A DNA stretch of 64,000 bases from Arenicola marina (taxonomy: Eukaryota; Annelida; Polychaeta; Arenicolidae), in NCBI GenBank assembly GCA_964019135.1, contig OZ025256.1, positions 15,631,911-15,695,910 on the forward strand, given 5' to 3'. Position numbers and translations under genes: made by a program. A model generated the notes under the pieces. It saw only the letters and a list, made by a program, of their open reading frames with translations, was not told the origin of the DNA and made no database searches. Numbering within the stretch: the first letter of the stretch is position 1; the number at the start of each line of letters is the position of its first letter. This document shows positions 21,933-58,467 of the stretch, piece by piece.

Positions 21933-24900
21933 GTACGACAGTCACACCTTCACGGTCAAACAATACAGTGACACAGTCACGGTCAAATAATACAGTGACA
22001 CAGTCACGGTCAAATAATACAATGACGCAGTCACGGTCAAATAATACAATGACGCAGTCACGGTCAAATAATACAATGACGCAGTCACGGTCAAATAATA
22101 CAATGACGCAGTCACGGTCAAATAATACAATGACGCAGTCACGGTCAAATAATACAATGACGCAGTCACGGTCAAATAATACAGTGACACAGTCACGGTC
22201 AAATAATACAATGACGCAGTCACGGTCAAATAATACAATGACGCAGTCACGGTCAAATAATACAATGACGCAGTCACGGTCAAATAATACAATGACGCAG
22301 TCACGGTCAAATAATACAGTGACACAGTCTCGGTCAAATAATACAATGACGCAGTCACGGTCAAATAATACAATGACGCAGTCACGGTCAAATACTATAG
22401 GAACACTTTCAGGCTCAAGATAGATAGATAGATAGATAGCTTCAAATAGTCAAACAATAGCAGTAACACAGTCACGGCAAAATAATACAGTAACTGTTAC
22501 CGCCATACATCGCGATGTAAATGACAGTAAAACATCCTGATTGTGAGTAAAACGTGAGCTATTATGGTACGTGATTATTGGCCACGATGACCTGACACTG
22601 CATTCGTGACATTCTCACAGGGCCCCTGACTGGTATTAATATTGAATATCTCCTACGTTTGTTACAGGTTTGACCGAGGCAGAGAAGTATCTGAAAGCGG
22701 ACAGAGAAAAGGACAAAGGGAACGAGGTGCGTATATGAAACAACAACCCTTTATTTTCTGTGAATATTTATGCACTACTAGACCACGTATCCAGTTAATG
22801 TCCTGAATACCTATTTCACTAAGGTATTATTGGTTTTGCGTGTGTTAAAACCCCAAGTACAGCTATTTTAAAATGATGCTGCCTGGTCCCTGGCCAAACT
22901 GCACATAGCTTGGGCTGGTTCTGGCGAACGTGAACGGCTGTGGCATCAGCCACTGGGCGATAAATCAAGGTTGTCCGGGCCCAGCCCCAAGCGTGCGATT
23001 CAACTGTGTGGACTAATGTTTCAGCATAAATCAAATATAGCTCAAGTATGACTCACGACTCCCCAATTCATAAGCCGCGCGTAGCTTACTCTCGAAAGGT
23101 GCACTTTCGACGTAGCATCATCGGCTCGTTATTGGTAAAGCAATGATATGCGACGTAATGTTAGCACTTCCTAATTAGCAAAATCAACCTTTTGTAGACA
23201 TGTATTTGGACCCGATAATCGCTCGACAAATGTTCCAGTTAGCGCTAAGTCTATTGGCGTAGCCTAAGTGACGATTATGAACACGGCCCCTGGAACATGG
23301 ACTACGGACCCCAAATATGCGGGCTAAGCCATATTGGTGACGTCACGACAACAGTGGTCGACCCTAGGTTTATTTGTGTGTATTTACAGACTTGGTGTAA
23401 CAGTCGCTTTTAAAGTGTTGTGACAATGAACTTTAATAGACCTATCTAGGCTGTCAATCATTCAGTTGATGTCACTGTTGCTTTTTATCCAATCTTGTGG
23501 TGAGAAAAGCTCTTCCACGTGCGTTATGTTGGACAAACGAGTCGGACAAACTGAGCAGCATGTCATTTTGTTGTCAGTTTCAGAGTACAAAAAAGTACTC
23601 AAGCGTGGGCAGGGCGTGGGCGGGGCTTAGTGTCGAGTATGGCTCGATCTATTGTATCCCGTTGTCTGGATTACTCCCCCGGTGCAGGCGTTCCGGGCTG
23701 GCGACTATGACGAGGCTCTGCTCTACTACTGCCGCAGTCTCTCCATCATCAGCACGGTGGCCGCTCACAACAACAGGGCGCAGGCATGTAAGTCACCAGT
23801 CAGACAGGGTGGCCGCTCACAACAACAGGGCGCAGACATGTAAGTCATCGTTCAGACAGGGTGGCCGCTCGCAACAACAGGGCGCAGACATGTAAGTCAT
23901 CGTTCAGACAGGGTGGCCGCTTACAACAACAGGGCGCAGACATGTAAGTCATCAGTCAGACAGGGTGGCCACTTACAACAACAGGGCGGAGACATGTAAG
24001 TCATTAGTCAGACAGGGTACCCGATCACAACAACGGGGCGCAGACATGTAAGTCATCAGTCAGACAGGGTGGCCACTTACAGCAACAGGGCGGAGACATG
24101 TAAGTCATTAGTCAGACAGGGTGCCCGCTCACAACAACAGGGCGCAGACATGTAAGTCATCAGTCAGACAGGGTGGCCACTTACAACAACAGGACGCAGA
24201 CAGGTCAGTCATCAGTCAGACAGGGTGGCCACTTACAACAACAGGGCGCAGACATGTAAGTCATCAGTCAGACAGGGTGGCCACTTACAACAACAGGGCG
24301 GAGACATGTAAGTCATTAGTCAAACAGGGTGGCCGTTTACAACAACAGGGCGCAGACATGTAAGTCATCAGTCAGACAGGGTGGCCACTTACAACAACAG
24401 GGCGCAGACAGGTCAGTCATCAGTCAGACAGGGTGGCCACTTACAACAACAGGGCGCAGACATGTAAGTCATCAGTCAGACAGGGTGGCCACTTACAACA
24501 ACAGGGCGGAGACATGTAAGTCATTAGTCAGACAGGGTGGCCGCTCACCACAACAGGGCGCAGACATGTAAGTCATCGTTCAGACAGGGTGGCCGCTTAC
24601 AACAACAGGGCGCAGACATGTAATTCATCAGTCAGACAGGGTGGCCATTCACAACAACAGGGCGCAGGCATGTAAGTCACCAGTCAGACAGGGTGGCCGC
24701 TCACAACAACAGGGCGGAGACATTTAAGTCATCAGTTAGACAGGGTGGCCGCTTACAACAACAGGGCGCAGACATGTAAGTCATCAGTCAGACAGGGTGC
24801 CGCTTACAACAACAGGGCGCAGGCATATAAGTCACCAGTCAGACAGGGTGGCCGCTCACAACAACAGGACGCAGATATGTTAGTCATCATTGTCATATTA

Positions 24901-27900
24901 ATAGTTTGCAATTGTTTTATCTTCAATATCACATGTATTCATATTCAGGGTTTTAGTATTGACTCTTTGAGTTATTTAGAATGAACTAAACCAATATGGC
25001 ACGATATAGCCTTGCAGGCTGAAAGTGCCGTTAAGCGATAATCAAATCAAATCATATTAATAGTTACACGAGTTAGGGTCACATTCTAAAGGTCACATGT
25101 TACATGTTAAATGTCACGTGTTAAACGTCACATGTTAAATGTCTTATGTTAAATGTCTTATGTTAAACATCACATGTTAAATGTAACACGTTAAATGTCA
25201 CATGTTAAGGGGCACATGTTAATGGTCACGTCTTAAGTGTCAAATGTTAAGGGTCAATCCATTGATCGCGTTGTCTGTAGTATATGTAGGAAAGCGCTCT
25301 ATCTGTTCGCCTGACCTGGTTACTCTGTCTGTCCCAGATCTAAAGCTGAAGAAGTGGAAGGAGGCGCTAGCGGACTGCAATGCCGTCCTACGGATGGATT
25401 CACTCAACTTGAAAGGTCAGTATTAAGTATAAAATCATTCGTTAGTCGATATCGATTTTATTTGTGTGAAAGGTTTTAACCTAATTGGTAATTCTGCAGT
25501 ATCGTTTAATACAAATTTTTTCATAATTAATTTGACTAGGAAACAGACCGCGATCATCTATATAAGTACTCGTTTCTCATGTACCTATTCCGTTGAGTTT
25601 TCCAACATCAGCCTTATCTAACGTCTGGTCGCGTGATTTTTCGAGTTGGTTTCTAGTGTTGCCTTTATTTATGGTTAATATTAATGATCAATTGAAAACC
25701 TGCACCAGCACGTAAAGTGGGACAGCGCAGTATGTGTGTTTGAGTCTCAGCCTACCTTGAATGCCATCCTTCCACTGTGCCCAGGTTACCTGCGCCGAGC
25801 TGTAGCGTACCAGGGACAGCGAGAGTTTGTCCTCGCCCAGACCGACCTTGAAGTTGTCCTGGAGAGGGAGCCACAGAACAAACAGGCCAAGGTCAGCCTA
25901 CTGTGTGACCCCAGAGTAAAATGGATGCTCACCAATCCTGGTCTAATGGCTGGGGTTTGCTGGTTCGCGCCCCGCTGTGGCCATGTCGGTGTGGTCGCAT
26001 GATAAAGATGCCACGTCTTTATTCGCAAAGAATAGGGGGGTTACCCCCAGGGACATGGCTCCGCTCTTCCCTTCCTTCTTCCATTGACGCGATATGACCA
26101 AAAGTGGTTGAAGCGTCCTGAATATACAACCAATCACCAATCCTGAACGTAAACATGTTTGAGGTGCCGATAACGCGCTCTGCGCTGGCTATATGTAGCC
26201 TCTTGGGGTGACAATAATTAAGGTTCTGGCAAAGAAATGGATATGGCATTGCTTCTCATACGAAATTTTAGAGAGTTATTTCGGCTCTGCTTGAATAATG
26301 CAGATTGTGCTGAGATAACCCCATCTCGCACTTGATTCAGTGTCATATGCATATCTTGTTTTATTTGTTATTGTAGTAATCAGAATGTGTATTATATGAA
26401 CGTAGTTCGTATATATTGTCATGTTTTGGGTATGGCTTAACCATTGTGCTTGGAATAGAACTGATGGCAGATAGCTGAGGTGCGCAACACATAATACGCA
26501 TGTAGCTGTTCGTCCACGATCCTCCAATAACCCGTACCCCACCCACCCCCCTCCTCCTAGGCTGTGCTACAGGAGGTGGAGAAGGGATTGGCACAACAAA
26601 AGGTCAAAGGTCGCCGAATAATGATTGAAGAGGTCAGCGGGTCATCTAGCGAAGACGAGGCGGACACGACGGGGGAGGAAGGTGATCAGACTCAACAGCC
26701 GAAGATGGCCAATGGGGAGCCGGCGTCGTGTACCGCCGACCCGGTTGCGGCTGCCGCCACTCGGGTAGAGATTGAAACTAACCAAACTGACGGAAGCGGA
26801 AGTAAGACTGATACCGGAAGTATGGAGGTCCCGCCTGACGTCAAAGAGCAAAGCGGAAGTGACGTAATGTCGGACCCGGCGCGAGATGCTGTGCCTGACG
26901 TTTGCGGCCCACCAAGAGGCGGTGTGAATGGGACCGGCGCAGGAACCGCCGGGGAAAATGACGTCATACCGGAAGTGACCTCTGATGGAGGTCATAAGCA
27001 AGATGCGTCCGAGGCCTCAAACGCCTCGATAAAAGGCGACGAAAGTGTCTCAGACATGGGTGAACCTCAGACTGGTACCAGTCAGCATTCCACTCCAGTC
27101 ACGGAACCAGCCACTCCCGCAGACACCGTACCTCCAGGGGACGCCACCACTGGCGCGGCGTCTCCGGCAATCTCCACCGTCCAGCCGCAGGTAGACCTGC
27201 CGCCAGAGGTCGCTACGCTGAAGGACCAGGGCAATGAATTGTTTCGTTCCGGACGTTACGCGGAGGCTATCAGCGTGTATGACAGCACGCTCAGCAAACT
27301 GGGGGAAGGTCAGTCAGCCCATCAAACTCTTTTCCTTACTGTGTCTTACTCAACATTCTCAGTCCATATAATAACACGCGCTCTTTTTTACTAAAGTGTT
27401 CGTTGTATGATGATATGCGTGAACGTAAAGAACTGCTATTATACGTTCTCAACAATGGATACATTTGTAGAGCTGATGTCCACAGTCAACGAGCAAGTTA
27501 TGTTTAATTTATGTAAATTTGTAAGCTGGGCACTCCAAAGGAAATACCAGAGTGGTTATTGAAATTTCCAAAATTCACTTTTCATATCGTTTGTATGTAC
27601 TGTCATGACTGTGGTTTTGTGCTTTGTGTACGAATTTACTATATATATCTGTACAAAATTTACTGCTGAAATTATGGTAATTTTTGTAGAGCTTGGGTAT
27701 TGATTGAGTGTGTTTGTCGCGTGCAGACGCTGGCCACGCCGCGTCTCGCGCCGTGCTGTACAGTAACCGCGCCGCGTGCCGCAGTAAGATCGGGGATTGC
27801 GTGGGGTGTGTGCGGGACTGCGACATGGCGCTGCTGCTCGACCCCCGGGCCATGAAGGCTCTCCTCAGGCGGGCCATGGCCCAGGAACAACTGGAGAAGT

Positions 27901-30900
27901 AAGTAAGCCCGTCAGCTGCCTTGCTCGCCTGATGGACTCTTATTTGCTTGTTTATGTTATAAGTCTATGCCGAAATCTTATCCATTTGAAATGTGGGCCA
28001 AAAAAGGCGGTTTCGTTAGAAATTTAATGCCGGGGAACATCCGAAAGCAAACTAACCACAATGCTCGGGGTTGTAATTTGGATTTGATTGTGGTTTCGTG
28101 AGAGTTAGGCATGTAAATATAAAGCCACACATATAAACACAAAAGTATCTCCGTTATTTTGAGTGATATCGTTAAGCAAATGAGATGTTTAGTTAATGTG
28201 TATGTTTATGTTTATCGTTCATATGCTATGTTGTATGTTCCAGGTACACCCAAGCCTACATAGACTTCCGACGTGTCCTGTTACTGGACCACAGCGTCGA
28301 CATCGCCAACGCCGGCTCCACCAGGTGAGACCCCCCCCCCCGCCCCCCGGCTCCGTCAGGTGAGACCCCCCCCCCTCCCCGGTTCTACCAGGTGAGACTC
28401 ACGCCCCCCGCCCCCCCCGGCTCCACCAGGTGAGACGCCCCCCCCCGCTTCGGAGGCCCCTCCCTCCCTCTCGGCTCTGCCAGGTGAGACTAACGCCCCG
28501 CCCCCCGGCTCCACCAGGTGAGACCCCCCCCCCCCGGCTCCACCAGGTGAGGCTTGGCTTCACTAGATGACGATCCAAGGGTTGTAACGCTTAATAGGAC
28601 ATATGATACTTTCTATTTAGTATGAAATGCGGTTTCCAGGCTCAGGGACGAGTTATCTCCCTCTACACGTCCACTTTGACATGTAAATTTTGAAATGGCT
28701 TTACCCGCCGTCCCTGTCGCAACAGTTGTTAAATGTTTGAAAGTAAAAGAAGTGAAACGATATTTTAAGGCCTCAGGCCCAGAGATCTCCGTGTGCAACA
28801 CATCATGAGTACAGGGTGTCTATCAATGTCTCTGTGTACAACACATAATGAGTACAGGGTGTCTATCAAAGTCTCTGTGTACAACACATAAAAGAGTACA
28901 GGGTGTCTATCAATGTCTCCGTGTACAACACATAAATGAGTACAGGGTGTCTATCAAGGTCTCCGTGTACAACACATAAATGAGTACAGGGTGTCTATCA
29001 ATGTCTCCGCGTACAACACATAAATGAGTACAGGGTGTCTATCAATGTCTCCGTGTACAACACATAAATGAGTAAAGGGTGTCTATCAATGTCTCCGTGT
29101 ACAACACATAAATGAGTACAGGGTGTCTATCAATGTCTCCGCGTACAACACATAAATGAGTACAGGGTGTCTATCAATGTCTCCGTGTACAACACATAAA
29201 TGAGTACAGGGTGTCTATCAATGTCTCCGTGTACAACACATAAATGAGTACAGGGTGTCTATCAATGTCTCCGTGTACAACACATAAATGAGTACAGGGT
29301 GTCTATCAAGGTCTCCGTGTACAACACATAAATGAGTACAGGGTGTCTATCAATGTCTCCGCGTACAACACATAAATGAGTACAGGGTGTCTATCAATGT
29401 CTCCGTGTACAACACATAAATGAGTAAAGGGTGTCTATCAATGTCTCCGTGTACAACACATAAATGAGTACAGGGTGTCTATCAATGTCTCCGCGTACAA
29501 CACATAAATGAGTACAGGGTGTCTATCAATGTCTCCGTGTACAACACATAAATGAGTACAGGGTGTCTATCAATGTCTCCGTGTACAACACATAAATGAG
29601 TACAGGGTGTCTATCAATGTCTCCGTGTACAACACATAAATGAGTACAGGGTGTCTATCAATATCTCCGTGTACAACACATAATGAGTACAGGGTGTCTA
29701 TCAATGTCTCCGTGTACAACGCAAATGAGTACAGGGTGTCTATCAATGTCTCCGCGTACAACACATAAATGAGTACAGGGTGTCTATCAATGTCTCCGTG
29801 TACAACACATAAATGAGTACAGGGTGTCTATCAACGTCTCCATGTACGACACATAAATGAGTACTATACGATATAACTTAAGAGCGAGCGCCTGTTGCTT
29901 CCAGATGTAGCCAGGTTTTGATGAGGCGGGACGGCCCGGAGTGGAGGAAGAGACTGCCCCCCATAACACTGCCGTCACTGGGCATGCACCAACCACAAGG
30001 TAGGTCTAGACTGCCCCCATAACACTGCCATCACTGGGCATGCACCAACCACAAGGTAGGTCTAGACTGCCCCCCATAACACTGCCATCACTGGGCATGC
30101 ACCAACCACAAGGTAGGTCTAGACTGCCCCCCATAACACTGCCGTCACTGGGCATGCACCAACCACAAGGTAGGTCTAGACTGCCCCCCATAACACTGCC
30201 ATCACTGGGCATGCACCAACCACAAGGTATGTCTAGACTGCCCCCCATAACACTGCCGTCACTGGGCATGCACCAACCACAATATAGGTCTAGACTGCCC
30301 CCCATAACACTGCCGTCACTGGGCATGCACCAACCACAAGGTAGGTCTAGACTGCCCCCCATAACACTGCCATCACTGGGCATGCACCAACCACAAGGTA
30401 GGTCTAGACTGTCCCCCCATAACACTGCCGTCACTGGGCATGCACCAACCACAAGGTAGGTCTAGACTGCCCCCCATAACACTGCCATCACTGGGCATGC
30501 ACCAACCACAAGGTAGGTCTAGACTGCCCCCCATAACACTGCCATCACTGGGCATGCACCAACCACAAGGTAGGTCTAGACTGCCCCCCATAACACTGCC
30601 GTCACTGGGCATGCACCAACCACAAGGTAGGTCTAGACTGCCCCCCATAACACTGCCGTCACTGGGCATGCACCAACCACAAGGTAGGTCTAGACTGCCC
30701 CCCATAACACTGCCATCACTGGGCATGCACCAGCCACAAGGTAGGTCTAGACTGTCCCCCCATAACACTGCCATCACTGGGCATGCACCAACCACAAGGT
30801 AGGTCTAGACTGCCCCCCATAACACTGCCGTCACTGGGCATGCACCAACCACAAGGTAGGTCTAGACTGCCCCCCATAACACTGCCGTCACTGGGCATGC

Positions 30901-33900
30901 ACCAACCACAAGGTAGGTCTAGACTGCCCCCCATAACACTGCCATCACTGGGCATGCACCAGCCACAAGGTAGGTCTAGACTGTCCCCCATAACACTGCC
31001 ATCACTGGGCATGCACCAACCACAAGGTAGGTCTAGACTGCCCCCCATAACACTGCCATCACTGGGCATGCACCAGCCACAAGGTAGGTCTAGACTGTCC
31101 CCCATAACACTGCCGTCACTGGGCATGCACCAGCCACAAGGTAGGTCTAGACTGTCCCCCATAACACTGCCATCACTGGGCATGCACCAGCCACAAGGTA
31201 GGTCTAGACTGTCCCCCATAACACTGCCATCACTGGGCATGCACCAACCACAAGGTAGGTCTAGACTGCCCCCCATAACACTGCCATCACTGGGCATGCA
31301 CCAGCCACAAGGTAGGTCTAGACTGTCCCCCCATAACACTGCTGTCACTGGGCATGCACCAGCCACAAGGTAGGTCTAGACTGTCCCCCATAACACTGCC
31401 ATCACTGGGCATGCACCAGCCACAAGGTAGGTCTAGACTGTCCCCCATAACACTGCCGTCACTGGGCATGCACCAACCACAAGGTAGGTCTAGACTGCCC
31501 CCCATAACACTGCCGTCACTGGGCATGCACCAGCCACAAGGTATGTCTAGACCGCCCCCCATAACACTTCCGTCGCTGGGCATGCACCAGCCACAAGGTA
31601 GGTCTAGACTGTCCCCCATAACACTGCCGTCACTGGGCATGCACCAGCCACAAGGAAGGTCTAGACTGCCCCCCCATAACACTGCCGTCACTGGGCATGC
31701 ACCAGCCACAAGGAAGGTCTAGACTGTCCCCCATAACACTGCCGTCACTGGGCATGCACCAACCACAAGGTAGGTCTAGACTGCCCCCCATAACACTGCC
31801 ATCACTGGGCATGCACCAACCACAAGGTAGGTCTAGACTGCCCCCCATAACACTGCCATCACTGGGCATGCACCAGCCACAAGGTAGGTCTAGACTGCCC
31901 CCCATAACACTGCCGTCACTGGGCATGCACCAGCCACAAGGTAGGTCTAGACTGTCCCCCATAACACTGCCGTCACTGGGCATGCACCAACCACAAGGTA
32001 GGTCTAGACTGCCCCCCATAACACTGCCATCACTGGGCATGCACCAACCACAAGGTAGGTCTAGACTGCCCCCCATAACACTGCCGTCACTGGGCAAGCA
32101 CCAACCACAATGTAGGTCTAGACTGCCCCCCATAACACTGCCGTCACTGGGCATGCACCAGCCACAAGGTAGGTCTAGACTGCCCCCCATAACACTGCCA
32201 TCACTGGGCATGCACCAACCACAAGGTAGGTCTAGACTGCCCCCCATAACACTGCCGTCACTGGGCAAGCACCAACCACAATGTAGGTCTAGACTGCCCC
32301 CCATAACACTGCCGTCACTGGGCATGCACCAACCACAAGGTAGGTCTAGACTGTCCCCCATAACACTGCCGTCACTGGGCATGCACCAGCCACAAGGTAG
32401 GTCTAGACTGCCCCCCATAACACTGCCGTCACTGGGCATGCACCAACCACAAGGTAGGTCTAGACTGCCCCCCATAACACTGCCGTCACTGGGCAAGCAC
32501 CAACCACAATGTAGGTCTAGACTGCCCCCCATAACACTGCCGTCACTGGGCATGCACCAACCACAAGGTAGGTCTAGACTGTCCCCCATAACACTGCCGT
32601 CACTGGGCATGCACCAGCCACAAGGTAGGTCTAGACTGCCCCCCATAACACTGCCGTCACTGGGCATGCACCAACCACAAGGTAGGTCTAGACTGCCCCC
32701 CATAACACTGCCGTCACTGGGCATGCACCAACCACAAGGTAGGTCTAGACTGCCCCCCATAACACTGCCATCACTGGGCATGCACCAACCACAAGGTAGG
32801 TCTAGACTGCCCCCCATAACACTGCCATCACTGGGCATGCACCAACCACAAGGTAGGACTAGACTGCCCCCCATAACACTGCCGTCACTGGGCAAGCACC
32901 AACCACAATGTAGGTCTAGACTGCCCCCCATAACACTGCCGTCACTGGGCATGCACCAGCCACAAGGTAGGTCTAGACTGCCCCCCATAACACTGCCGTC
33001 ACTGGGCAAGCACCAACCACAATGTAGGTCTAGACTGCCCCCCATAACACTGCCGTCACTGGGCATGCACCAACCACAAGGTAGGTCTAGACTGTCCCCC
33101 ATAACACTGCCGTCACTGGGCATGCACCAGCCACAAGGTAGGTCTAGACTGCCCCCCATAACACTGCCGTCACTGGGCATGCACCAACCACAAGGTAGGT
33201 CTAGACTGCCCCCCATAACACTGCCGTCACTGGGCATGCACCAACCACAAGGTAGGTCTAGACTGCCCCCCATAACACTGCCATCACTGGGCATGCACCA
33301 ACCACAAGGTAGGTCTAGACTGCCCCCCATAACACTGCCATCACTGGGCATGCACCAACCACAAGGTAGGTCTAGACTGCCCCTCATAACACTGCCGTCA
33401 CTGGGCATGCACCAACCACAAGGTAGGTCTAGACTGCCCCCCATAACACTGCCATCACTGGGCATGCACCAACCACAAGGTATGTCTAGACTGCCCCCCA
33501 TAACACTGCCGTCACTGGGCATGCACCAACCACAAGGTAGGTCTAGACTGCCCCCCATAACACTGCCGTCACTGGGCATGCACCAACCACAAGGTAGGTC
33601 TAGACTGCCCCCCATAACACTGCCATCACTGGGCATGCACCAACCACAAGGTAGGTCTAGACTGTCCCCCCATAACACTGCCGTCACTGGGCATGCACCA
33701 ACCACAAGGTAGGTCTAGACTGCCCCCCATAACACTGCCATCACTGGGCATGCACCAGCCACAAGGTAGGTCTAGACTGTCCCCCCATAACACTGCTGTC
33801 ACTGGGCATGCACCAGCCACAAGGTAGGTCTAGACTGTCCCCCATAACACTGCCATCACTGGGCATGCACCAGCCACAAGGTAGGTCTAGACTGTCCCCC

Positions 33901-42900: not shown

Positions 42901-45234
42901 TCCTTTGAGTTTGATTCACACACTCTTCATTAGGCGAAAAGTAGGTTTCCAATTATGGAGTGTTATGTTCAGTGGTATTTTTTGTCTACAGTGATCACCA
43001 ACAAGTTGGACGGTTCCATGTTGGTCACGATGACAAAGTGCATGAGGCTGAAGATACAAAACGGTAAGTGCACCTGCTCTGCCCTTTACTCCCGATGAGG
43101 GGATTAAGATTTGCAGAAGTAGCCTGCACCGTTCTACCAATACGGTTCTTCAACAGCAATAATTGGTGAAAAAATACCTGGCCGGTGCGTGGTTCGACTC
43201 CCCCCCCCCCCCTCCACTGACTGCAAATGTCTATGTATGTGCAGAGAGTAGGGGGTTACTCAGTCCCGGAGACATAGTCCCTCTCTACCCTCACCCTTCC
43301 CATGATCGCATATGATCTACATAAGTTAGAGCGCCGTGCGTAGACCCATCACCCTGGTTGTTACCGTACCACTGTGTTATTTTTCCTCAGGTGAAGCGAC
43401 CGAGGCGCTGCAATACCTCCAGGCCCATCACCCTGGTTGTTACCGTACCACTGTGTTATTTGTCCTCAGGTGAAGCGACCGAGGCTCTGCAATACCTCCA
43501 GCCCATCACCCTGGTTGTTACCGTACCACTGTGTTATTTTACCTCAGGTGAAGCGACCGAGGCTCTGCAATACCTCCAGACCCATCACCCTGGTTGTTAC
43601 CGTACCACTGTGTTATTTGTCCTCAGGTGAAGCGACCGAGGCTCTGCAATACCTCCAGACCCACCACCCTGGTTGTTACCGTACCACTGTGTTATTTTAC
43701 CTCAGGTGAAGCGACCGAGGCTCTGCAATACCTCCAGACCCATCACCCTGGTTGTTACCGTACCACTGTGTTATTTTTCCTCAGGTGAAACGACCGAGGC
43801 GCTGCAATACCTCCAGACCCATCACCCTGGTTGTTACCGTACCACTGTGTTATTTGTCCTCAGGTGAAGCGACCGAGGCTCTGCAATACCTCCAGACCCA
43901 TCACCCTGGTTGTTACCGTACCTCTGTTATTTGTCCTCAGGTGAAGCGACCGAGGCGCTGCAATACCTCCAGACCCATCACCCTGGTTGTTACCGTACCT
44001 CTGTTATTTGTCCTCAGGTGAAGCGACCGAGGCGCTGCAATACCTCCAGACCAATCACCCTGGTTGTTACCGTACCTCTGTTATTTGTCCTCAGGTGAAG
44101 CGACCGAGGCGCTGCAATACCTCCAGACCCATCACCCTGGTTGTTACCGTACCTCTGTTATTTGTCCTCAGGTGAAGCGACCGAGGCGCTGCAATACCTC
44201 CAGACCCATCACCCTGGTTGTTACCGTACCTCTGTTATTTGTCCTCAGGTGAAGCGACCGAGGCGCTGCAATATCTCCAGAGTCTGACCACCGTGCCCAG
44301 GTTCCAAATGGTCTCCATGTTCATGTCTGATGACGAAAAATCTGGTAAGAGTTCATCGTACTATTGTATGGTGATATTTCCGATGACGAGAAGTCTGGTA
44401 AGTGTTTATTGTGTGGAGATATCTCTGGTAACGAGAAGTCTGGTAAGAGTTCATCGTAGTATTGTGTGGTGATATCTCTGATGACGAGAAGTCTGGTAAG
44501 AGTTTATTGTGTGGAGATATCTCTGGTAACGAGAAGTCTGGTAAGAGTTCATCGTAGTATTGTATGGTGATATCTCTGTTGACGAGAAGTCTGGTAAGAG
44601 TTCATCGTAGTATTGTGTGGTGATATCTCTGATGACGAGAAGTCGGGTAAGAATTTATTGTGTGGTGATATCTCTGATGAAGATATATTAAACTAAAAGC
44701 TGCGGAGTCGGTTTACCTATGCTTGCACAAAGGTGGCTTAGACACCAACCAACCCATCCCCTCGCGCCCATTTGTCGATCTTTAACGGCATCCGTTTTAG
44801 TTCTGGCAGCGTATCGTGGTTTAATTCTGCTTTGACGCCATCGGTAGGACGCTTGCGCTTAAATGATTGTATTCAAATACTTTCAATGTAGTATACCGCG
44901 GCATTTTATTTATAATAAGTGACTATCGTGGTGTTATTTTAGTTATAATAATAATATTAACTGATTTTACAACCCAATATATTAATACTTGATACTATGA
45001 TAAATGGAGCGTTAATTCACAGACACGATATATAAATGACAAAAGTACCTAATTGTAAACCTCCATTGATACAGACTGACACGATCGACCAGCTTGATGT
45101 AGTAACCATGGTTATTGACCTGTCCTCGTTGTCTTCCAGACGTGGCAGCAGTCTTTAACGACCTTAACGACAAACTGACAGACGATGCCCTGAAGCAACA
45201 GGCCGGCCTGGTCAGCAACAAGTTCGGCTTTTAG
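18017..45234 (+). CDS. SPAG1: SPAG1, dynein axonemal assembly factor (complete gene)
   Basis: Cytoplasmic TPR co-chaperone needed to preassemble outer and inner dynein arms of cilia with HSP70/HSP90 and R2TP-type partners; human loss causes primary ciliary dyskinesia. Coding exons: 18017-18135, 18740-18814, 19834-19918, 20417-20554, 21180-21274, 21808-21932, 22668-22726, 23688-23787, 25338-25415, 25785-25891, 26561-27308, 27727-27898, 28244-28324, 29905-29999, 38096-38238, 38637-38744, 39101-39190, 39884-39997, 40364-40499, 42221-42529, 42992-43063, 44249-44344, 45140-45234. They sum to 3240 nt, 1079 codons plus TAG, with every phase matching. Human SPAG1 is 926 residues; the extra length is mainly in the linker of exon 11 and before the C-terminal domain. 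The start has good context (accATGg) and MDIFKHERTKYDVPLDHLDY aligns to the family N-terminus. An acceptor at 17993-17994 implies an upstream non-coding exon. Six introns begin or end in tandem arrays that copy the splice site. Confidence 0.96.
21941..22397. repeat. 27-nt minisatellite, about 17 copies, beginning at SPAG1 exon 6 donor
   Basis: Unit AATACAATGACGCAGTCACG plus GTCAAAT. A degenerate first copy begins within about 10 nt of the exon 6 donor (21933). Because 27 is a multiple of 3 the exon frame stays open through the whole array (repeat NNTMTQSRS) to a stop at about 22421. A (GATA)n run follows at 22416-22440. Confidence 0.9.
22668..25891 (+). CDS. SPAG1: SPAG1 exons 7-10: TPR block 1
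   Basis: Residues about 213-327: GLTEAEKYLKADREKDKGNE, AFRAGDYDEALLYYCRSL, VAAHNNRAQAYLKLKKWKEA, LADCNAVLRMDSLNLKGYLR, and the helix ending in REPQNKQAK. The N-N-R-A-Q and K-W-K-E-A positions are the carboxylate-clamp style TPR residues that bind EEVD tails in this family. Exon 8 (23688-23787) ends GCGCAGGCAT|gtaagt. That end is copied about 22 times in the following array, and only the first copy keeps the frame into exon 9. Confidence 0.95.
23440..23657. mobile_element. Dispersed repeat D, copy 1
   Basis: Contains CTGTCAATCATTCAGTTGAT, TCTTCCACGTGCGTTAT, GGACAAACGAGTCGGACAAA and GGCGGGGCTTAG. An inverted copy with the same order lies at 61632-61920. This copy ends about 30 bp before SPAG1 exon 8. 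Confidence 0.65.
23757..24888 (+). repeat. 52-nt array copying the donor of SPAG1 exon 8, about 22 copies
   Basis: Each unit contains the last 31 nt of exon 8 (GTGGCCGCTCACAACAACAG...), the donor CAT|gtaagt and about 15 nt of intron. The first copy is the real exon end (23787). Most later copies keep gtaagt; a few vary (caggtcagt near 24210 and 24410) or are broken (catttaag near 24722). The unit is not a multiple of 3, and reading past the first donor meets TAA in the next unit. Confidence 0.93.
24966..25052 (+). mobile_element. Retroposon family B tail, copy 1
   Basis: Contains GATATAGCCTTGCAGGCTGA then AAGTGCCGTTAAGC and ends in AATCAAATCAAATCA. The same 3' end occurs at 39215-39290 and 51920-52011. 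The repeated AATCAA tail is typical of a non-LTR retroposon end. Confidence 0.65.
25084..25255. repeat. 14-nt array, about 12 copies
   Basis: Degenerate units of GTCACATGTTAAAT in the intron between SPAG1 exons 8 and 9. No splice site is included. Confidence 0.8.
25944..26143 (+). mobile_element. tRNA-derived SINE (family A), copy 2, 5' truncated
   Basis: Begins near the B box (GGTTCGCGCCCCGC) and continues through the shared body to the TATACAACC end, in the intron between SPAG1 exons 10 and 11. Confidence 0.7.
26561..27308 (+). CDS. SPAG1: SPAG1 exon 11: acidic linker and start of TPR block 2
   Basis: A 748-nt exon, the longest in the gene. It starts AVLQEVEKGLAQQKVKGRRI, matching the end of TPR block 1 in human SPAG1, then IMIEEVSGSSSEDEADTTGE, the conserved acidic motif. 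About 190 residues of low-complexity Pro/Thr/Gly/Asp linker follow, and then VATLKDQGNELFRSGRYAEA, the first helix pair of TPR block 2. The linker codons are GC-rich and the second half of the exon is the least conserved part of the protein. Confidence 0.94.
27727..29999 (+). CDS. SPAG1: SPAG1 exons 12-14: TPR block 2
   Basis: Exon 12 (27727-27898) encodes VLYSNRAACRSKIGDCVGCV, DCDMALLLDPRAMKALLRRA and AQEQLEK; exon 13 (28244-28324) YTQAYIDFRRVLLLDHSVDI; exon 14 (29905-29999) DGPEWRKRLPPITLPSL. All three align to human SPAG1 in order. Exon 14 ends CAACCACAAG|gtaggt, the seed of the 57-nt giant array. Exon 13 ends CCACCAG|gtgaga, the seed of a GC-rich donor array. Confidence 0.95.
28311..28556 (+). 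repeat. GC-rich array copying the donor of SPAG1 exon 13, 7 donors
   Basis: GGCTCCACCAG|gtgaga and close variants recur with donor GT at 28325 (real), 28360, 28392, 28430, 28484, 28518 and 28547, separated by C-rich spacers of variable length. Each copy carries the last 10-11 nt of exon 13. Confidence 0.9.
28795..29870. repeat. 44-nt minisatellite, about 24 copies, with 352-bp higher-order period
   Basis: Unit ATGAGTACAGGGTGTCTATC plus AATGTCTCCGTGTACAACACATAA, wholly intronic between SPAG1 exons 13 and 14. Variants (AAGGTCTCC, CCGCGTAC, GAGTAAAGG) recur exactly 352 bp apart (28951/29303 and 29071/29423), i.e. 8 units were copied as a block. Confidence 0.92.
29950..37427 (+). repeat. 57-nt giant array copying the donor of SPAG1 exon 14, about 131 copies
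   Basis: 7.5 kb. Unit: gtaggtctaga, then CTGCCCCCCATAACACTGCC, then GTCACTGGGCATGCACCAAC, then CACAAG. Each unit holds the last ~47 nt of exon 14 and the donor AAG|gtaggt. Variants include gtatgt, gaaggt (broken), aatgtaggt and C-run length 5-8. The first intronic unit has one C fewer (56 nt), so reading on from exon 14 meets TAA at 30020-30022. After that most units are 57 nt and open on both strands. Confidence 0.97.
37438..37462. repeat. (CA)n microsatellite
   Basis: Dinucleotide run immediately at the right end of the 57-nt array, about 11-12 repeats. Confidence 0.9.
37898..38012. repeat. 47-nt repeat, about 2.5 copies
   Basis: Unit TTTTGCGCAATAATCGGTTT plus CGTGACGTATTAACATGTAAAATAAA, intronic, ending about 85 bp before SPAG1 exon 15. 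Confidence 0.85.
38096..39997 (+). CDS. SPAG1: SPAG1 exons 15-18: TPR block 3
   Basis: Exon 15 gives a Lys/Ser/Pro-rich spacer and then LFEQHKAEGNALVQK; exon 16 GRYKEAIACYDKCVESCPGK and AYSNRALCYLKLSQ; exon 17 DDCNMALILEPTNVKAIFRR; exon 18 LEQYKESVADVKTLLRLDPT. This is the third TPR trio, the one closest to RPAP3 and HOP TPR domains. Exons 16-18 all begin and end in phase 0, so each could be skipped without a frameshift. A SINE lies in the intron between exons 17 and 18. Confidence 0.95.
39215..39290 (+). mobile_element. Retroposon family B tail, copy 2
   Basis: Same GATATAGCCTTACAGGCTGA end and AATCGAATCAAAA tail as at 24966 and 51920, just after SPAG1 exon 17. Confidence 0.6.
39432..39690 (-). 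mobile_element. tRNA-derived SINE (family A), copy 3, most complete head
   Basis: Read on the minus strand from 39690: CCGATAGCTCAGTGGGTTAG (A box), GAGCGCTC, then GGTGGTTCAAGCCCCG (B box), then the shared body. These spacings fit a tRNA-like RNA polymerase III promoter. It lies in the intron between SPAG1 exons 17 and 18. Confidence 0.8.
40364..45234 (+). CDS. SPAG1: SPAG1 exons 19-23: linker and C-terminal RPAP3_C-type domain
   Basis: Exon 19 ends TPR block 3 with a charged helix and RIRIEEVNSS, matching the conserved IEIQEVNE. Exon 20 (42221-42529) holds a Gly-rich stretch (GGGGGGAGG), then YEFLQAWAALKGSDLQQYAS, the start of the helical domain shared with RPAP3. Exon 21 encodes NKLDGSMLVTMTKCMRLKI, exon 22 EATEALQYLQSLTTVPRFQM, and exon 23 VFNDLNDKLTDDALKQQAGL with the stop TAG at 45232-45234. 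This domain binds R2TP (RUVBL/PIH) components in the family. Confidence 0.94.
40680..42060. repeat. 40-nt minisatellite, about 33 copies
   Basis: Unit GGGGATAACAGGACAGTCAT plus GGAGATAATAGGGCAAGCAT, itself two related 20-nt halves. Degenerate copies flank both ends. Wholly intronic between SPAG1 exons 19 and 20; no splice site inside. Confidence 0.95.
42513..42585 (+). repeat. Two-copy repeat of the SPAG1 exon 20 donor
   Basis: GAGCTGGCCAAAG|gtaggt at 42529 (real) and GGGCTGGCTAAAG|gtaggc about 47 nt later, separated by a G run. It looks like the smallest stage of the donor arrays seen elsewhere in the gene. Confidence 0.75.
43165..43320 (+). mobile_element. tRNA-derived SINE (family A), copy 4, diverged
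   Basis: B-box-like GTGGTTCGACTCCCC at about 43184, then AGTAGGGGGTTACTC and GGAGACATAG as in the body of the other copies. In the intron before SPAG1 exon 22. Confidence 0.55.
43340..44280 (+). repeat. 77/79-nt array copying the acceptor of SPAG1 exon 22, 12 copies
   Basis: Each unit holds pyrimidine-rich intron, cctcag, and the first 31 nt of exon 22 (GTGAAGCGACCGAGGCNCTG...CTCCAG). Acceptor AG ends at 43390, 43469, 43547, 43626, 43705, 43784, 43863, 43940, 44017, 44094, 44171 and 44248. Only the last leads into the rest of the exon. The first seven units are 78-79 nt and the later ones 77 nt (cctctg in place of ccactgtg). Starting at an earlier acceptor runs into TGA at the next acceptor. 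Confidence 0.95.
44329..44690 (+). repeat. Array copying the donor of SPAG1 exon 22, 7 donors
   Basis: GATGACGANAANTCTG|gtaaga recurs with GT at 44345 (real), 44398, 44443, 44496, 44541, 44594 and 44647; spacings alternate between about 53 and 45 nt. Each copy includes the last ~15 nt of exon 22. Confidence 0.92.
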
Positions 45235-46647: not shown

Positions 46648-46653
46648 AATAAA
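46648..46653 (+). terminator. SPAG1: Candidate SPAG1 poly(A) signal
   Basis: AATAAA on the plus strand, about 1.4 kb after the SPAG1 stop. An AATAAA on the minus strand lies only about 140 bp further (46791-46796). This pairing would fit two tail-to-tail genes sharing a termination zone. ATTAAA variants occur nearer the stop (about 45819 and 46204), so the actual cleavage site is open. Confidence 0.3.
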
Positions 46654-46790
46654 AGTCAGTTAGTTTGACTTCCGTGCAAAACGAATGTTAGAATTGACCT
46701 GTTTGTGTTCATGAAAGTTCGGCGCGATTGCACACAGATATGTAATCCAAAACAAGAGAAACCAAACATCCGCGTGAGGTTTACAGCTTT

Positions 46791-46796
46791 TTTATT
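46791..46796 (-). terminator. Candidate poly(A) signal of the OXR1-like gene
   Basis: TTTATT on the plus strand, that is AATAAA on the minus strand, 4.3 kb downstream of the OXR1-like stop at 51085. It would imply a long 3' UTR. The call rests only on the motif and its closeness to the opposite-strand signal at 46648. Confidence 0.22.
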
Positions 46797-47589
46797 ATTT
46801 CTTTAGTAGTTAGTATCTGACCATACTGTACTGTACACGCTTTCTTTCTGAACAACTTGAACACAGTCACATTTGGGCAAAGCCTTAAGTAGTGTTTACT
46901 TAATGCACAACGAACATCGGTGACCTGCTAAACAAATGTACCTTAATGTACTTTTAAAGTGCTATCAGATACAAACGCCAAAGACTAACCGAGCTACAGC
47001 TCTGCCCCTTGCCTAACAAGACCCCTGCACCACCAACGGCCGGGCGCCAATAGGTATTGTTGCCATGGGCAACCAAAAACTATCGATTCGACCAATCACA
47101 AGATCCAAGCATGCAAGTTGGATCAAAACATCCAATTCTTCTGAGATAGATAGATCTTCATTATTATTATTATTATTATACAAATCTCCCGGCATAATAA
47201 CCATGAAAACAAACATAATCGTGGATAGTTTAATCTCCCCACAAGCCGCGCCCTTTACTATATAGCTCCCTTACTACTCAGCTGTTCAAGCACTACATCA
47301 GCCACAGTAGTCACCACTGATATGGAAGATACATTGTACACGACTTGCACACAATCGCGCCGTATAGCATCTAGGTGTAAGTTAACATGTTTCGAGAAGA
47401 TACGCCGAATGCATTCTCTCGCACGCATGAGTTTGTAGACTGGCTGCAGCCGCCACTGGGTAAAAACGCAGTCTTGATAACAGCCGAACCCGAGTAAGCT
47501 AATGCTGTGGGTAGAGACGGCGTACCGCCGGCCGGTGTCCCGGGGAGCTCTGGGCAGTCGTCCCCGATACAATCCTTGGTGTCCGGGTC

Positions 47590-47697
47590 TTAAATGGACG
47601 CTTTTAACCACTTTTGGTCCTATCGCTTTAATGGGAGACGGAAGAGAGAGTGGCCGAGCCATGTCCCCGGTGGTAACCCCCTACTCTTTGCGAAGAC
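47590..47697 (-). mobile_element. SINE family A fragment
   Basis: Body only (GGACGCTTTTAACCACTTTT ... CCCCTACTCTTTGCGAAG on the plus strand), no tRNA head; lies in the tail-to-tail interval. Confidence 0.6.
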
Positions 47698-50600: not shown

Positions 50601-50794
50601 ACGTGTCCCTTCACATCCGGTGGTGACGTCACATCCGGTGGTGACGTCACGTCCGGTGGAGTGCACGCCACGCAGAAGGCAGACCGCCAATATGATCACA
50701 GCTACTGGGTTTAAAACATCGAACAACTGAAAGAAAAAATGAACAGTGTATTATACAAACAGGGCACAGATAGATCAATAAACGTCACTATGGT

Positions 50795-51062
50795 CAATTC
50801 ACTACACACGGCTTATGTCGTCACTACACACGGCTAATGTCGTCACTGCACACGGCTAATGTCGTCACTGCACACGGCTAATGTCGTCACTACACACGGC
50901 TAATGTCGTCACTACACACGGTTAATGACGTCACTGCACACGGCTAATGACGTTTCTACACATGGCTAATGCCTTCACCACACAGCAAATTACGTCACTA
51001 CACACGGTTAATGACGTCACTACACACCGGTAATGACGTCACGACACACGGATTATGACGTC
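50795..51062. repeat. 22-nt repeat, about 12 copies, rich in TGACGTCA-like sites
   Basis: Units like TCACTACACACGGCTAATGT, with later copies giving TGACGTCACT. It ends about 25 bp before the OXR1-like stop codon side, i.e. in its 3' UTR. Confidence 0.8.
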
Positions 51063-51084
51063 ACTCACCTGACATCGATCCGGT

Positions 51085-53662
51085 TCACAAGAAGCCCCAA
51101 ACTTCCACGTGCTTGATGACGAAGTCCTCGGCCTCCGTAAGTATCTCGTTGGCGTAAGTCTCGCAGGACTGAGTTCTGCCGTGGTACAGGTCACCGTCCA
51201 GCCAAATGCCGAACGAACCCCTGAGGACAACACATTCAATATATACTTAAATATTTATAGATTTGTTTGCTTTATTTGAACACAATTTCCGCGAGGATGT
51301 AACCCTGAAGGGGATACCAATGATATGCACGATGTCTGCTCATCCAATGGCTGCTCAATACGTTAGGAATCAGACTCGACTGGTGTTTGATCCATTGACT
51401 TAAATAGGAGGATTTAAACGCTAAAGAAAGACCTGCAACCCGATACGCATTACAGCGTAACAGCGGTTTAAAAGATATGAACTAACGCCCAGCTGGAGCT
51501 TCTGAACTGGAGACTCTGAACAGGACCGAGTATCGCGTCAATGGTGGAGAGAGAAGGGTAGAGCCGAGCCATGTCCCCGGGGTAACACCCTACTCTTTGC
51601 AATGATAGGGATGAATATTACCAAACAACTGAGTTAAGGTACCTATTTAATACTATACCTCATCAGAAGATTTTAGACTACTCATCTGCAATAAATCTAG
51701 TCAAATATATGTAAAATCTAGTCAACGTATACTATCAAACAGTGCATTTTGCTGTAGTTATTAATCTCGAAAGTTTGGTTTTAAATACCAACATCAACAT
51801 TCATGATTTTATATTCTAACATCTTATTGACTTTATCGTTTCACCATTCTTCACATTCACGTGACCCTTTATAATTTTTGCAATATTTTTATGTATTGAT
51901 ACTTTTAGGGTTTTAGTATTGATTGATTAATTATTTAAATTGAACTGAACCAGTATGGCATGATATAGCCTTACAGGCTGAAAGTGCCGTTAAGCCCCAA
52001 TCAAATCAAACCTACTCTTTGCACAGTAGACCATGGGATCTTTATACAGAGCGCTCAATGCGAGCGCTCTAACCCACTGAGCTATTGGGGCGTCCCTCTG
52101 AGGTACGGAGTCTCATAAGGAAACACGAGGCGTAGCGGGCGGGGATGACACTTACTTCCCAGCACCAATAGCGAGGCTCTCTGCGTTGCCTTTGATAATG
52201 AAGTTGTTGGATCCCGTCCAGATGTATTTCTGAAGATACCATGGCGGACACGATAAGTAAGAGGGTTTGAGCCGATGATATTCGAGTTTCACTTGTAATA
52301 TAACATCGATTGAGCAGAACGCGAGAACTATTATTCGAGCAAGAAAAGTGAGTCCTCAAAATTACAAGATATATATGCTGCACTGCGAGCCAAATAATTT
52401 ACAACGATTAACATTAGCTTTCTTAAAGCATCTCAAATGTGTGCTTTCAGAAGCGAAACGCTTGCGTGACACTCCCGAAAAAATTGGTTCGTTTCTATCT
52501 CATTTTACCCACCCCAATCTTTTACGTCTAAATTGGCCTTAAATTGGTCGTATTTCAAAGGATGTATCGGGGAAAGGGGGGGCCTTCGCATGAACGCCAC
52601 CACCCAACGACCTTGTGGCCTATTTCGCCAACATAGTTTAACCGGCTAAAGGCCTTAGTCTCTTATAATCGCCCATCATTCACATGCTAACTTTAGCCGA
52701 CTAAGCCCCGTAGTCGCTAAACAGCGTTCGTGGAATCCGCCACACGAAAGAGCAAATACGACTGGACGGCGTTCGCGTCTGACCTTGAAGTCTGGGTAGA
52801 AGGTGAAGAGGAAGGACTCCCCAGAGCCGTAGAAGTGGTCGCTCATCTTTATGGCACAGGGCAGCATGGCGCCGAACACCTGCAAGAGACGTACGCAGGA
52901 ATACAGAAAATTGACATGAATCGGTTCTCCCAGACTTCAATACTTCAAGTCACAAATTCACTCACTCACAAAAGCATATTCGTTTCTATAATGTAAGTAT
53001 GGACTAATTGTCAGTCCCTTAGGCAGGCACCCGTCAAATGAACACCCTGTGAAATTTACATGCTACACACTGGATCCGGCTGTTTTCATGTATAGATAGA
53101 TACACAAAGCAGGCAAACAGATATCAGTTTGCAAGTTCCCGTCATAGCTTGGAACGACGTCTATCAGATGCAAGCTGCAGATTAATTTGCTCACATCACG
53201 ATGTCAGCAGTGGAATAGAACATCTCTCAACCGGCTTACGCTGTCTGTATTCAATGCAGCAAAACAAAAGTCTTTGATTGCTGTTCTGCTACTCTTTGAG
53301 CAGAAGCTTCGACGCCAAGAAATGAATATGCGCGAGATCTATGGCATTCAAAGCATTGCAAATAGATCTTCTATCCAGACAGACGATTGTCATTAAAATA
53401 TACATACCTCAATTACGACGAAATAAGACGTCGTAATAGATAGGATTCTCAGAAAACTGAAATGAATACAATCGGGAATATACGTCATGCCAAAGGGTAT
53501 ACAACTTACATCGTCATAGGTATCCTTGATGATGAGCAGCACAGGGCTGTCGATATGCCACATGGTCCGGTAGAGGGTCTTCAAGCTGAAGCCGTGCTTC
53601 TCAGAGCTGTAGACCAACGCCCAGGGGTAGCCCTCTGCGCGCGCCGGTAGGTGGAAACTCAT
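51085..53662 (-). CDS. OXR1/NCOA7: TLD domain exons of the OXR1-like gene
   Basis: 53510-53662: LPARAEGYPWALVYSSEKHG, FSLKTLYRTM, SPVLLIIKDTYDD. 52784-52879: VFGAMLPCAIKMSDHFYGSG, ESFLFTFYPDFK. 52156-52229: KYIWTGSNNFIIKGNAESLA. 51085-51220: FGIWLDGDLYHGRTQSCETY, EDFVIKHVEVWGFL, stop. This is a full-length TLD domain with the family hallmarks GYPW, SLKTLYR, FYGSGESFLF and LWLDGDLYHG (here IWLDGDLYHG) and the terminal WGF. The glycine-rich loop of vertebrate members (GGGGG) is reduced to GAGKGS. Confidence 0.94.
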
Positions 53663-56600
53663 CTAGAATTGCAGCAATGTATCAATACAGTAACCCCAGA
53701 TCAAAGCCATTACATTCCTTAACCCTGGCTAATAGAACTGCCTCATTTTACCCCCGATTGACAAAACCACTATATTCCTTAACCCTGGCTAAAAAAAAAC
53801 GCCATATTGTTACCCCCCGACTGACTAAACCACCATATGCCTTAACCCTGGCTGACAAAACCGCCACATTTGTATAATGTACCCGTCATGTCCTCAGACA
53901 CACAGCGCCACTACCCGCCATGACCTCAGACACACAGCGCCACCTACCCGCCATGACATCAGACACATAGCGCCACCTACCGACCATGACCTCAGATACA
54001 CAGCGCCACCTACCCGTCATGACCTCAAACACACAGCGCCACCTACCCGCCATGACCTCAGATACACAGCGCCACCTACCCGCCATGACATCAGACACAC
54101 AGCGCCACTTACCCGCCATGACCTCAGACACACAGCGCCACCTGCCGACCATGACCTCAGATACACAACGCCATCTACCGACCATGACCTCAGATACACA
54201 GCGCCACCTACCCGCCATGACCTCAGACACACAGCGCCACCTACCCGCCATGATCTCAAATACACAGCACCACCTACCCACCATGACCTCAGACACACAG
54301 CGCCACCTACCCGCTATGACCTCAGATACACAGCGCCACCTACCGACCATGACCTCAGACACACAGCGCCACCTACCCGCCGGATGTGGGTGTCGTCCAT
54401 GACGACGCTTGGCTCGCATAGTTCCGGAAGTGGTAGATTCTCAATCTCGGCGGCCGAGATACGCCTTCGGGCCTCCTCCAGGGTAACGATCTGATATAAA
54501 AGTAACAAACTTTCACTTTCCCTTTCCCAATACAATCCATTCCTTGGGCATATCAACGGTGTTTCCCCATTGTCATTACTAGCAAAGACAGTCACAGAGA
54601 AGGATCGTTAAATCAATCAAAAGGTGTCGCCCTGCACAAAAGGGAGACGCGTGCAGTGAAGAGGCCATCAAGTGATCAACTTCTAGAATAAATATCAGAT
54701 TAGTAAGTTAAATCCATATAATATACAGCCCACTCGCCCAGCTTAATCCCAAAGCATGTGGAAATGAAGAAAGTCGGAATTTACTCGATACCTTAAGGAT
54801 AACATAAGACTCTTGGGCTCTTACTCGCCTTGGCAGAATCTTAACTCATTACTCGTCGATATAGCAGCAGTTTTAAAGCAAAGTCATGACAAAGAAACGG
54901 TTGAAGATCAGAAGATCATGCTCCAGCGGTCGTGCATAAGACACACGGGTGGCATACACTGCATGTTAATCACATCAAAACGCAGAGAAACCGTCAGTTT
55001 GGCCAACAGATGGCGACACCAAAGTTGCAGAGGTTGCACTCCATGCAAAAGATCAAGAGGCACAGCGACATTGGATCACGTGACCAGAGCTCAGTGCGCG
55101 ACTTCCCTCGTATTATAATAAGTAAGAAACGTGTCAAACCACTGTGCGTTCCATACAAGCCTTTTCAATAAAAGCAAATTAACTGCACACTCTTAAGCAA
55201 TACTTCATGAAACAGAAATTTATCGCAGGACAATATGTTTCATTCTAAGTCTCGGTCAATATCACATGTGTTTTTATGGGTTTTTTTACTTTTATATACT
55301 GACGGTAAATAACACTGTATCTAACCTTATCTTAATAAATAATAGTGATATAAGAAAGTTATGTTGACGACTGTTTTTACAATCCGAATGAACAATCTGC
55401 CAGGAGTACCATGCTCCCGACTAAACAACCCATTCCTAAGCACAGATCGTCGAATAGCTTCCACCAGAACATATTTCAGTGTTTAGTGTACTTCAATAAT
55501 AGTGACACGTCAGACGTAACTTAACAGTGTGTTAGGGTTATTATCGTACTTAATTTGCAAAGGTGTTTAACTATGTACAGGTGCTGGCAATATTAAGCCA
55601 GGAAAGCCGACTATACCAATTACACTATCACAGGTAAGCCACATGCGTAGTGGTATCAGTATCAGGCCATGAAAGATCGCATTTTTTTAAATACTGATGA
55701 GAACCCTACAATTTTGCATCTAGTATTTCTATTCTATCCGCTTTCTATGAACTACCAGTGTCGTTTTTTCACACAATTATGACTTTAGGTAACTGAACCA
55801 TCACCAGTTACGAAAAGGTCAGATATAAAGATGTGTAGAAAGGCCAAACACAAAGAAATCACCGTCAAACAGGAAAGGCGATAGGACATGCCAAGCTATA
55901 GATAAAGAAGTTACAATGCAGCAAAATCAGGATGGGCTATAGAGGACCGATCCAAACCAGAACATAACACCGCATGACAAAAGAGGAGGTGGTGGTGGGG
56001 AAGGGTTATGGAGGGGAGGGGGTGGCATTATATGTCATGGAAATGGACACATGGGAAGTAGGAGGGCACAAGAGGGGCAGGTAAGGCGTTATGGAGCGCC
56101 GATTAGAGAAGATCATGAAACAATTACAGGCCATGAACAGCAATTTGCTTAAATAGTTTTCCCCAAAACACATTGACGCATTATGCAGTTGGTGGTGCCA
56201 CCTATAATTTGACAACCAAACTAACCTCAATGTCAGAAGGACTTGGATCTGCCGCGCTTTGCTTCAACTTTGACGGGGCAAAGGGGGTGTGTAAATCGGG
56301 TCGTAAATACATTGTGCCTCCAACATTTTGATACGTGCAGAAAATGCATTAAAAGGCTACAAAAGATAATACTCGTAATTGATTAAGTACTAAACAACCG
56401 AACTGACTATACATACGGAAGGGAACAAAAATCACGGGAGTTCACACGAGTTTGTTTGTCTTACGATAACATACTGCGATATAACGGCATAAATTCACGT
56501 TGGGGTGCAAACACGGGACCAGTGCTGTGTAGCGTATTATCAGGTAGCGGCACTTCCCAAAGGGTATTTGTCCAGTTTTAGACACACAGTACAATACCGA

Positions 56601-58425: not shown

Positions 58426-58467
58426 CTGGAGCACACACCAACGACAGGACATGACATGAAATGTTTC

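Follow-up and report, generated by a model that had tools for sequence, protein, structure and literature searches.

Tandem arrays at exon borders

The DNA considered here is a stretch of 64,000 nucleotides from the lugworm Arenicola marina (contig OZ025256.1, positions 15,631,911 to 15,695,910), hereafter the window; the contig is 43 Mb long and the genome 867 Mb. It carries a SPAG1-like gene, an ADAM17-like gene and a TLDc-domain gene of the OXR1/NCOA7 type, together with tandem arrays of short units, and our subject is those arrays whose repeated unit contains the end of an exon and its splice site (Table 1). Arrays were detected with Tandem Repeats Finder (TRF), rows below score 50 being unreported, and were merged before being compared with the gene models; in the models read, the arrays lie in introns.

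A splice site was found inside seven of the 29 merged arrays (7/24 in the gene region), five of them in SPAG1, one at a TLDc donor and one at an ADAM17-like acceptor. This is about a quarter, where an earlier note on this DNA, drawn up from the letters, had claimed that about half of the arrays span an exon border. It had placed SPAG1 donor arrays at exons 8, 13, 14, 20 and 22, which are numbered one higher here (its exon 20 is our E21); those at E9, E14, E15 and E23 were recovered by TRF, whereas E21 has a mere two-copy duplication, seen by eye. The donor array that it saw at an OXR1-like exon, the TLDc exon of Table 1, is confirmed, as are the acceptor arrays at SPAG1 E23 and at the ADAM17-like exon. 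E23 has arrays at both of its ends, and the gene model uses the final copy of the upstream one as acceptor; the E14 donor array has seven copies by eye and five by TRF.

Table 1. Genes and exon-border arrays of the window (positions within the window) and border arrays at loci fetched from elsewhere in the genome.
Feature	Position	Strand	Unit and copies	Remarks
SPAG1-like gene	18017..45234	+		24 coding exons, single open frame using exon-side splice sites; named by homologues
SPAG1 E9 donor array	23744..24889	+	52 bp x 22	border 23787/23788; 44 exonic bp within
SPAG1 E14 donor array	28312..28551	+	copy spacing 29-54 bp	C-rich; border 28324/28325; 13 exonic bp within
SPAG1 E15 donor array	29951..37429	+	57 bp x 131	7.5 kb; border 29999/30000; 49 exonic bp within
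SPAG1 E21 donor duplication	42516..42583	+	two imperfect copies	border 42529/42530; read by eye, TRF silent, uncounted
SPAG1 E23 acceptor array	43342..44281	+	77-79 bp x 12	border 44248/44249; 33 exonic bp within
SPAG1 E23 donor array	44326..44680	+	45/53 bp alternating, 7 copies	border 44344/44345
TLDc-domain (OXR1/NCOA7-type) gene	51069..58429	-		six exons read
TLDc (OXR1-type) exon 54490-54377, donor array	53880..54381	-	33 bp x 15	just 5 exonic bases within
ADAM17-like gene	3746..10631	-		ten exons read, two of them alternatives
ADAM17-like exon 7433-7350, acceptor duplication	7418..7525	-	57 bp x 1.9	
L042 border array			32 bp x 12	
L043 border array			62 bp x 8	
L053 border array			about 100 bp x 5	
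L060 border array			82-84 bp x 5	
L069 border array			54-60 bp x 9	
L078 border array			42 bp x 8	
L083 border array			121 bp x 3	
L074 (chaperonin)				two acceptor arrays

Frequency of splice sites within arrays

Seven of the 77 exon borders counted in the window lie inside arrays. An array-blind sample was obtained by Pfam profile searches of the genome with the myosin head (77 matches) and the TCP-1 chaperonin (49 matches), of which 40 and 30 matched exons, respectively, were fetched, picked roughly by score and mutual proximity; myosin matches with internal stops were mostly avoided, and two apparently intronless chaperonin places were excluded. Borders were called by GT/AG and frame, and three positions were corrected by eye, which left the number of border-in-array cases unchanged. 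Also left out of the counts were both ends of SPAG1 (of which the 5' one is unread), the E21 duplication, the donor at the terminal exon of locus L081 and a doubtful donor, that of the final TLDc exon, which follows the stop codon. An exon hunt by coding score and Pfam in random 10-kb pieces gave few exons, none of which was entered in the counts.

In the array-blind sample 13 of 139 borders lie inside arrays (myosin 6/70, chaperonin 5/56, the last seven exons 2/13), which together with the window makes 20 of 216 splice sites, roughly one in eleven or about 9%. Donors are involved more often than acceptors, both overall (15/107 versus 5/109, Fisher P 0.019) and without the window (10/69 versus 3/70, P 0.045). 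Eleven of the 13 array-blind cases were listed copy by copy, and the other two, L078 and L083, were judged from TRF output and flanks.

At L083 (431-811) the array carries about three copies of a portion of the coding stretch for the myosin P-loop into the intron. In one of the random pieces, L022 (8248-8790, minus strand), a myosin I tail exon is followed by an array that begins about 10 bp past the donor; since its units are similar to the end of the exon, it may be a border array that has decayed.

The same question was put without TRF by a word test, which asks whether a 24-mer recurs in closely similar form within 400 bp and was run before the last seven exons (203 borders). Nearby copies were found for 13 of 203 border words, 4 of 833 exon-interior words and 842 of 3111 intron words; exons are protected, introns are full of arrays and borders are intermediate.

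Chance expectation and the position of array starts

Arrays are abundant in random DNA of this genome: 19 pieces of 10 kb contain 89 arrays covering 59,818 of 190,000 bases (31%), two of the pieces being wholly satellite. Satellite was seen in L013 and L015 (the entire 10 kb of each) and in L023 and L024 (the first 5 kb), with units of 68, 31, 45 and 67 bp. Against this background chance overlap was assessed with a founding-unit null, in which every array is reduced to its single original unit, the myosin and chaperonin runs excluding the last seven exons. For the window it gives 1.4-1.9 splice sites expected versus seven observed (P 0.0002 and 0.0015), and for the chaperonins 1.9 versus five (P 0.008).

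Array starts are also denser near borders. From -60 to +40 bp of a border 34 were counted in 19.9 kb, and from 80 to 480 bp inside the intron 34 in 50.7 kb; the rate ratio is 2.56 (P 1.1e-4 by the binomial test; 1.79-4.54 on bootstrapping by locus) and becomes 3.17 when the window is left out (P 1.6e-4). Donors alone give 3.97, and the excess is gone by about 160 bp from the border. In random DNA the 89 arrays, set against 130 kb of sequence outside arrays, make 0.68 per kb, and far introns have the same rate (0.67 per kb); the border rate is therefore raised and not the intron rate lowered. The rise over the first 60 intron bases (2.84) is at least equal to that on the exon side (2.17), and the hotspot is therefore the exon end, not the splice signal as such; the suggestion of the earlier note that repeats may nucleate at splice sites is to that extent not supported. 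Its wider proposal of a genome-wide process is partly supported, in that border arrays recur beyond the window, in two gene families, and starts are concentrated near borders. Two candidate causes were tried and rejected: GC (guanine plus cytosine) content, which is 0.438 in the units of intron-only arrays and 0.423 in introns, so that arrays do not favour GC-rich DNA, and two-base microhomologies at array ends, which were noticed by eye at two arrays and do not go beyond what chance could produce.

A number of results weigh against a true enrichment at borders. Rotation of the splice sites against the window arrays gives 7.1 expected versus seven observed, and hence no excess; the expectation is so high because of the length of the arrays, which take up 29% of the gene region, and rotation and the random dropping of whole arrays were both judged unsuitable as nulls because a grown array cannot swallow exons. 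The window excess is present only under the founding-unit null, the null suited to growing arrays. The founding-unit null itself is not rejected for the first myosin set (3.4 expected versus six, P 0.10). The start-rate ratio is 1.76 (P 0.12) in the window alone and 1.61, not significant (P 0.13), for acceptors. The bins of -60 to +40 bp were picked after viewing the data, and while four of five other choices give 2.2 to 2.8, that of -100 to 0 versus 0 to 400 gives just 1.08, since starts are in excess on the intron side of the border as well as on the exon side and are few in deeper exon. Some counted cases are slender: the arrays at the TLDc exon and at L059 hold just about 5 exonic bases and that at L046, a weak TRF array with a second border copy 58 bp further on, about 3 by TRF; at L056 it is uncertain which of two candidates is the acceptor, though both fall inside the array. 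The word test, which is stricter, scores 13 borders where TRF scores 18 in the same 203, and sampling beyond the window is confined to two gene families.

Copies and decoy splice sites

The copies of a border unit that lie within the intron are here called decoys. In the four donor arrays of SPAG1 the GT is kept in 155 of 163 decoys, and these resemble the true site in donor score. None of these 155 intact decoys gives an in-frame, stop-free exon, and the full-length protein can therefore be made only via the exon-side donor; with the exon-side copy chosen at every array, the 24-exon model is stop-free. In the largest array, that of E15, the first spacing is 56 bp and the GT is lost in six of 130 decoys and intact in 124, each of which would introduce a stop.

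The E15 array has 96% matches, with 32 distinct variants among 125 units and about 1.9 differences between two neighbouring units. Its loss of GT roughly matches this general divergence, and the decoys therefore look neutral. At the chaperonin locus L074 the acceptor units are fusions, in which the exonic piece joined to the acceptor comes from about 40-50 bp deeper in the exon. Such units would be explained if the founding duplication had been longer and an internal deletion had later arisen in the decoys.

Of 209 array units (overlapping TRF rows of the random pieces being counted separately), 201 are without a counterpart at any other of the loci compared, which argues for separate births, and none of the remaining eight is the unit of a border array. 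Unit lengths include both multiples and non-multiples of three.

Host and other features of the window

The SPAG1 protein has its top match in Capitella, and no Branchiostoma is named among the best 120 of 175 matches, some of which are unnamed. The mitochondrial ND1 is 80% identical to that of Abarenicola claparedi oceanica, the next annelids following at 65-66% (among the best 120 of 7977 matches). In the first 6 kb of the 15,942-bp mitochondrial contig, read with the invertebrate mitochondrial code, frames that look like nad4L, nad4, nad1 and nad3, named by eye except for nad1, stand on one strand in what we take to be the annelid order. The host is accordingly placed in the Arenicolidae or very close to them, and an amphioxus origin is rejected.

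In comparison with PDB entries the ADAM17-like gene matches ADAM17 best (7.7e-51), the best ADAM10 match being at 1.9e-15. Two of its neighbouring exons (3746-3887 and 4827-4965, minus strand) are alternative versions of one stretch (VFSEDGQ... and VFSRYAK...), like mutually exclusive exons, and between exons of the same gene there is a direct duplication of 188 bp (7653-8033) in two copies with 99% matches. Near the end of the window, a 40-bp unit is repeated 23.5 times at 62935-63875, with 99% matches and CAGGTGTTT in every unit. A stretch like ATGTCCCCGGGGTAACCCCCTACTCTTTGC marks a dispersed repeat that recurs at about 8050-8240, 39480-39690, 47600-47690, 51540-51600 and 52000-52090, and some copies also have a stretch resembling transfer RNA (tRNA; reverse: TAGCTCAGTGGGTTAGAGCGCTC), so that by eye it looks like a tRNA-derived short interspersed element.

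Origin and maintenance of the border arrays

The arrays are probably exon-border minisatellites of the kind known in amphioxus as 'mirages', produced by frequent birth, tolerance at exon ends and a modest local bias. A short stretch straddling an exon end would be duplicated in tandem and expand into the intron; coding sequence and a working splice site would be preserved in the copy next to the exon, and the other copies would be intronic, spliced out and free to evolve. Since a straddling array can grow only intronward and the exon copy is kept, such arrays would survive, stay confined to the intron and decay freely. Donor arrays are plausibly better tolerated than acceptor arrays, the exon-side donor winning via exon definition. 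Acceptor decoys sit upstream, so that a spliceosome scanning for AG would meet them first.

Tolerance explains the survival of border arrays and not the excess of starts over the intron background. Beyond tolerance there is a modest local bias, starts being two to three times as frequent in the 60 bp or so next to an exon end as in deep intron or random DNA. A two- to threefold excess calls for either a local bias in birth or a longer residence of near-exon DNA, and the data are consistent with either. That exon ends, and donors above all, are true birth hotspots for minisatellites, for instance through transcription-linked breaks or slippage at the exon-intron step, we put forward only tentatively, as an idea with the odds somewhat against it.

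Nucleation would be unneeded if DNA near exons were simply older, being less often replaced by insertions and deletions, and so had more time to collect arrays. The extension of the excess over the first 60 intron bases and its disappearance by about 160 bp suit this account; several border arrays, on the other hand, look young, with near-identical copies (E15, and those at L043, L053 and L060), and they speak mildly against it because age should matter little for them, so that we regard residence time as a possible, if rather unlikely, cause. Density and tolerance might also suffice without any bias towards exon ends, if arrays were born at a uniform rate, those in exons were purged and those straddling a border survived. 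The share of random DNA in arrays (31%), the rotation test, the near absence of copies in exon interiors (4/833) and the one choice of bins that shows no bias (1.08) are what would then be expected; a density of starts near borders 2.56 times that of far introns (3.17 times without the window), which match random DNA in rate, is not, nor are seven, six and five overlaps observed against founding-unit expectations of 1.9, 3.4 and 1.9, and we consider this account improbable.

Long arrays are hard to assemble, and assembly artefacts could create or inflate them; the many distinct variants (32 among the 125 E15 units) and the many border arrays of less than 1 kb make this very unlikely. A family of mobile elements delivering repeat units to splice sites would have nothing to recommend it except the number of arrays, and is extremely improbable when 201 of 209 units are without a match at other compared loci and no border array is among the other eight. 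That the arrays are coding repeats (variable number tandem repeats of protein) and not intronic decoys might be read from units of 57, 33 and 81 bp, which are divisible by three, but we give it almost no credence in view of the 56-bp first spacing in E15, the stop brought by each of its 124 intact decoys and the failure of all 155 intact SPAG1 donor decoys to give a stop-free, in-frame exon.

Significance

If the arrays are the border minisatellites that we take them to be, a curiosity of a few amphioxus genes is extended to a second, distant phylum and quantified, at 20 of 216 sampled splice sites. Decoys that are near copies of the true site, 155 of them intact in the four donor arrays of SPAG1 and 124 of these in a single intron, are for that reason natural experiments on positional splice-site choice, and such genes also suit the question of whether tandem duplication feeds intron gain. 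There is a practical warning for annotation as well, in that gene models in array-rich invertebrate genomes can put exon ends on decoys. Should exon ends prove to be hotspots of birth, about one splice site in ten would carry a train of largely intact decoys, a standing raw material for new introns and exons, and the spliceosome would have to rely on position and not on sequence.

Comparison with known systems

The same structures were described by Ebner et al. in 2010 in the amphioxus globin genes BflGb6 and BflGb9 and called mirages, with Adh3 and two further loci cited (PMC3087553), and a paper of 2013 adds PGBD5 as a mirage gene and cites troponin C (PMC3902484). The amphioxus precedent that the earlier note had mentioned for Adh is thus real (PMC3087553, PMC3902484). 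As presented in the globin paper, splicing of mirage genes is apparently normal and mirages are proposed as a source of introns; somatic length instability is cited there for Adh3 (PMC3087553). In the descriptions given by the two papers, as here, the unit reaches across the end of an exon and includes the splice site, donor or acceptor, and measures from ten to over a hundred bp (PMC3087553, PMC3902484). Minisatellite-like tandem duplications across an exon-intron border, at either end, are what the window and the fetched loci contain. The difference is one of taxon and not of structure, the host being an annelid and not a cephalochordate. Beyond the amphioxus reports come the rate (about 9% of sampled borders), the donor bias and the position profile measured here, and copy numbers of up to 131. 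The arrays are also minisatellites in the classical sense, with head-to-tail units of about 10-100 bp and variant copies, some units at the fetched loci exceeding 100 bp.

In the model of Rogers, as outlined in PMC4974935, introns are gained via tandem duplication of exon segments containing AGGT. Here too a splice-signal sequence is copied in tandem; unlike in that model, existing introns grow, and outward copies of exon interiors are almost absent (4/833 words). Human segmental duplications likewise have minisatellites at exon-intron borders, but those reported form a limited set in recent duplicates, some with changed transcripts (PMC2812944), whereas the lugworm has a high background across the sampled genes. 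Among annelids, the metallothionein genes of earthworms carry large minisatellite arrays in their first intron, which a 2026 paper, in its treatment of them, does not describe as spanning a splice site (PMC12783039), unlike the arrays here. For the genome of Amynthas aspergillum, figures of 2.65% minisatellites and 3.44% satellites are given, together 6.1% under other TRF settings (PMC12130307), far below the 31% of the random lugworm sample. No report of splice-site-spanning arrays in annelids, or of a genome-wide count of such arrays, was found in the open-access literature searched. The border arrays of Arenicola marina are a known kind of structure, reported earlier from amphioxus and now present, as far as that literature shows, in a new phylum.

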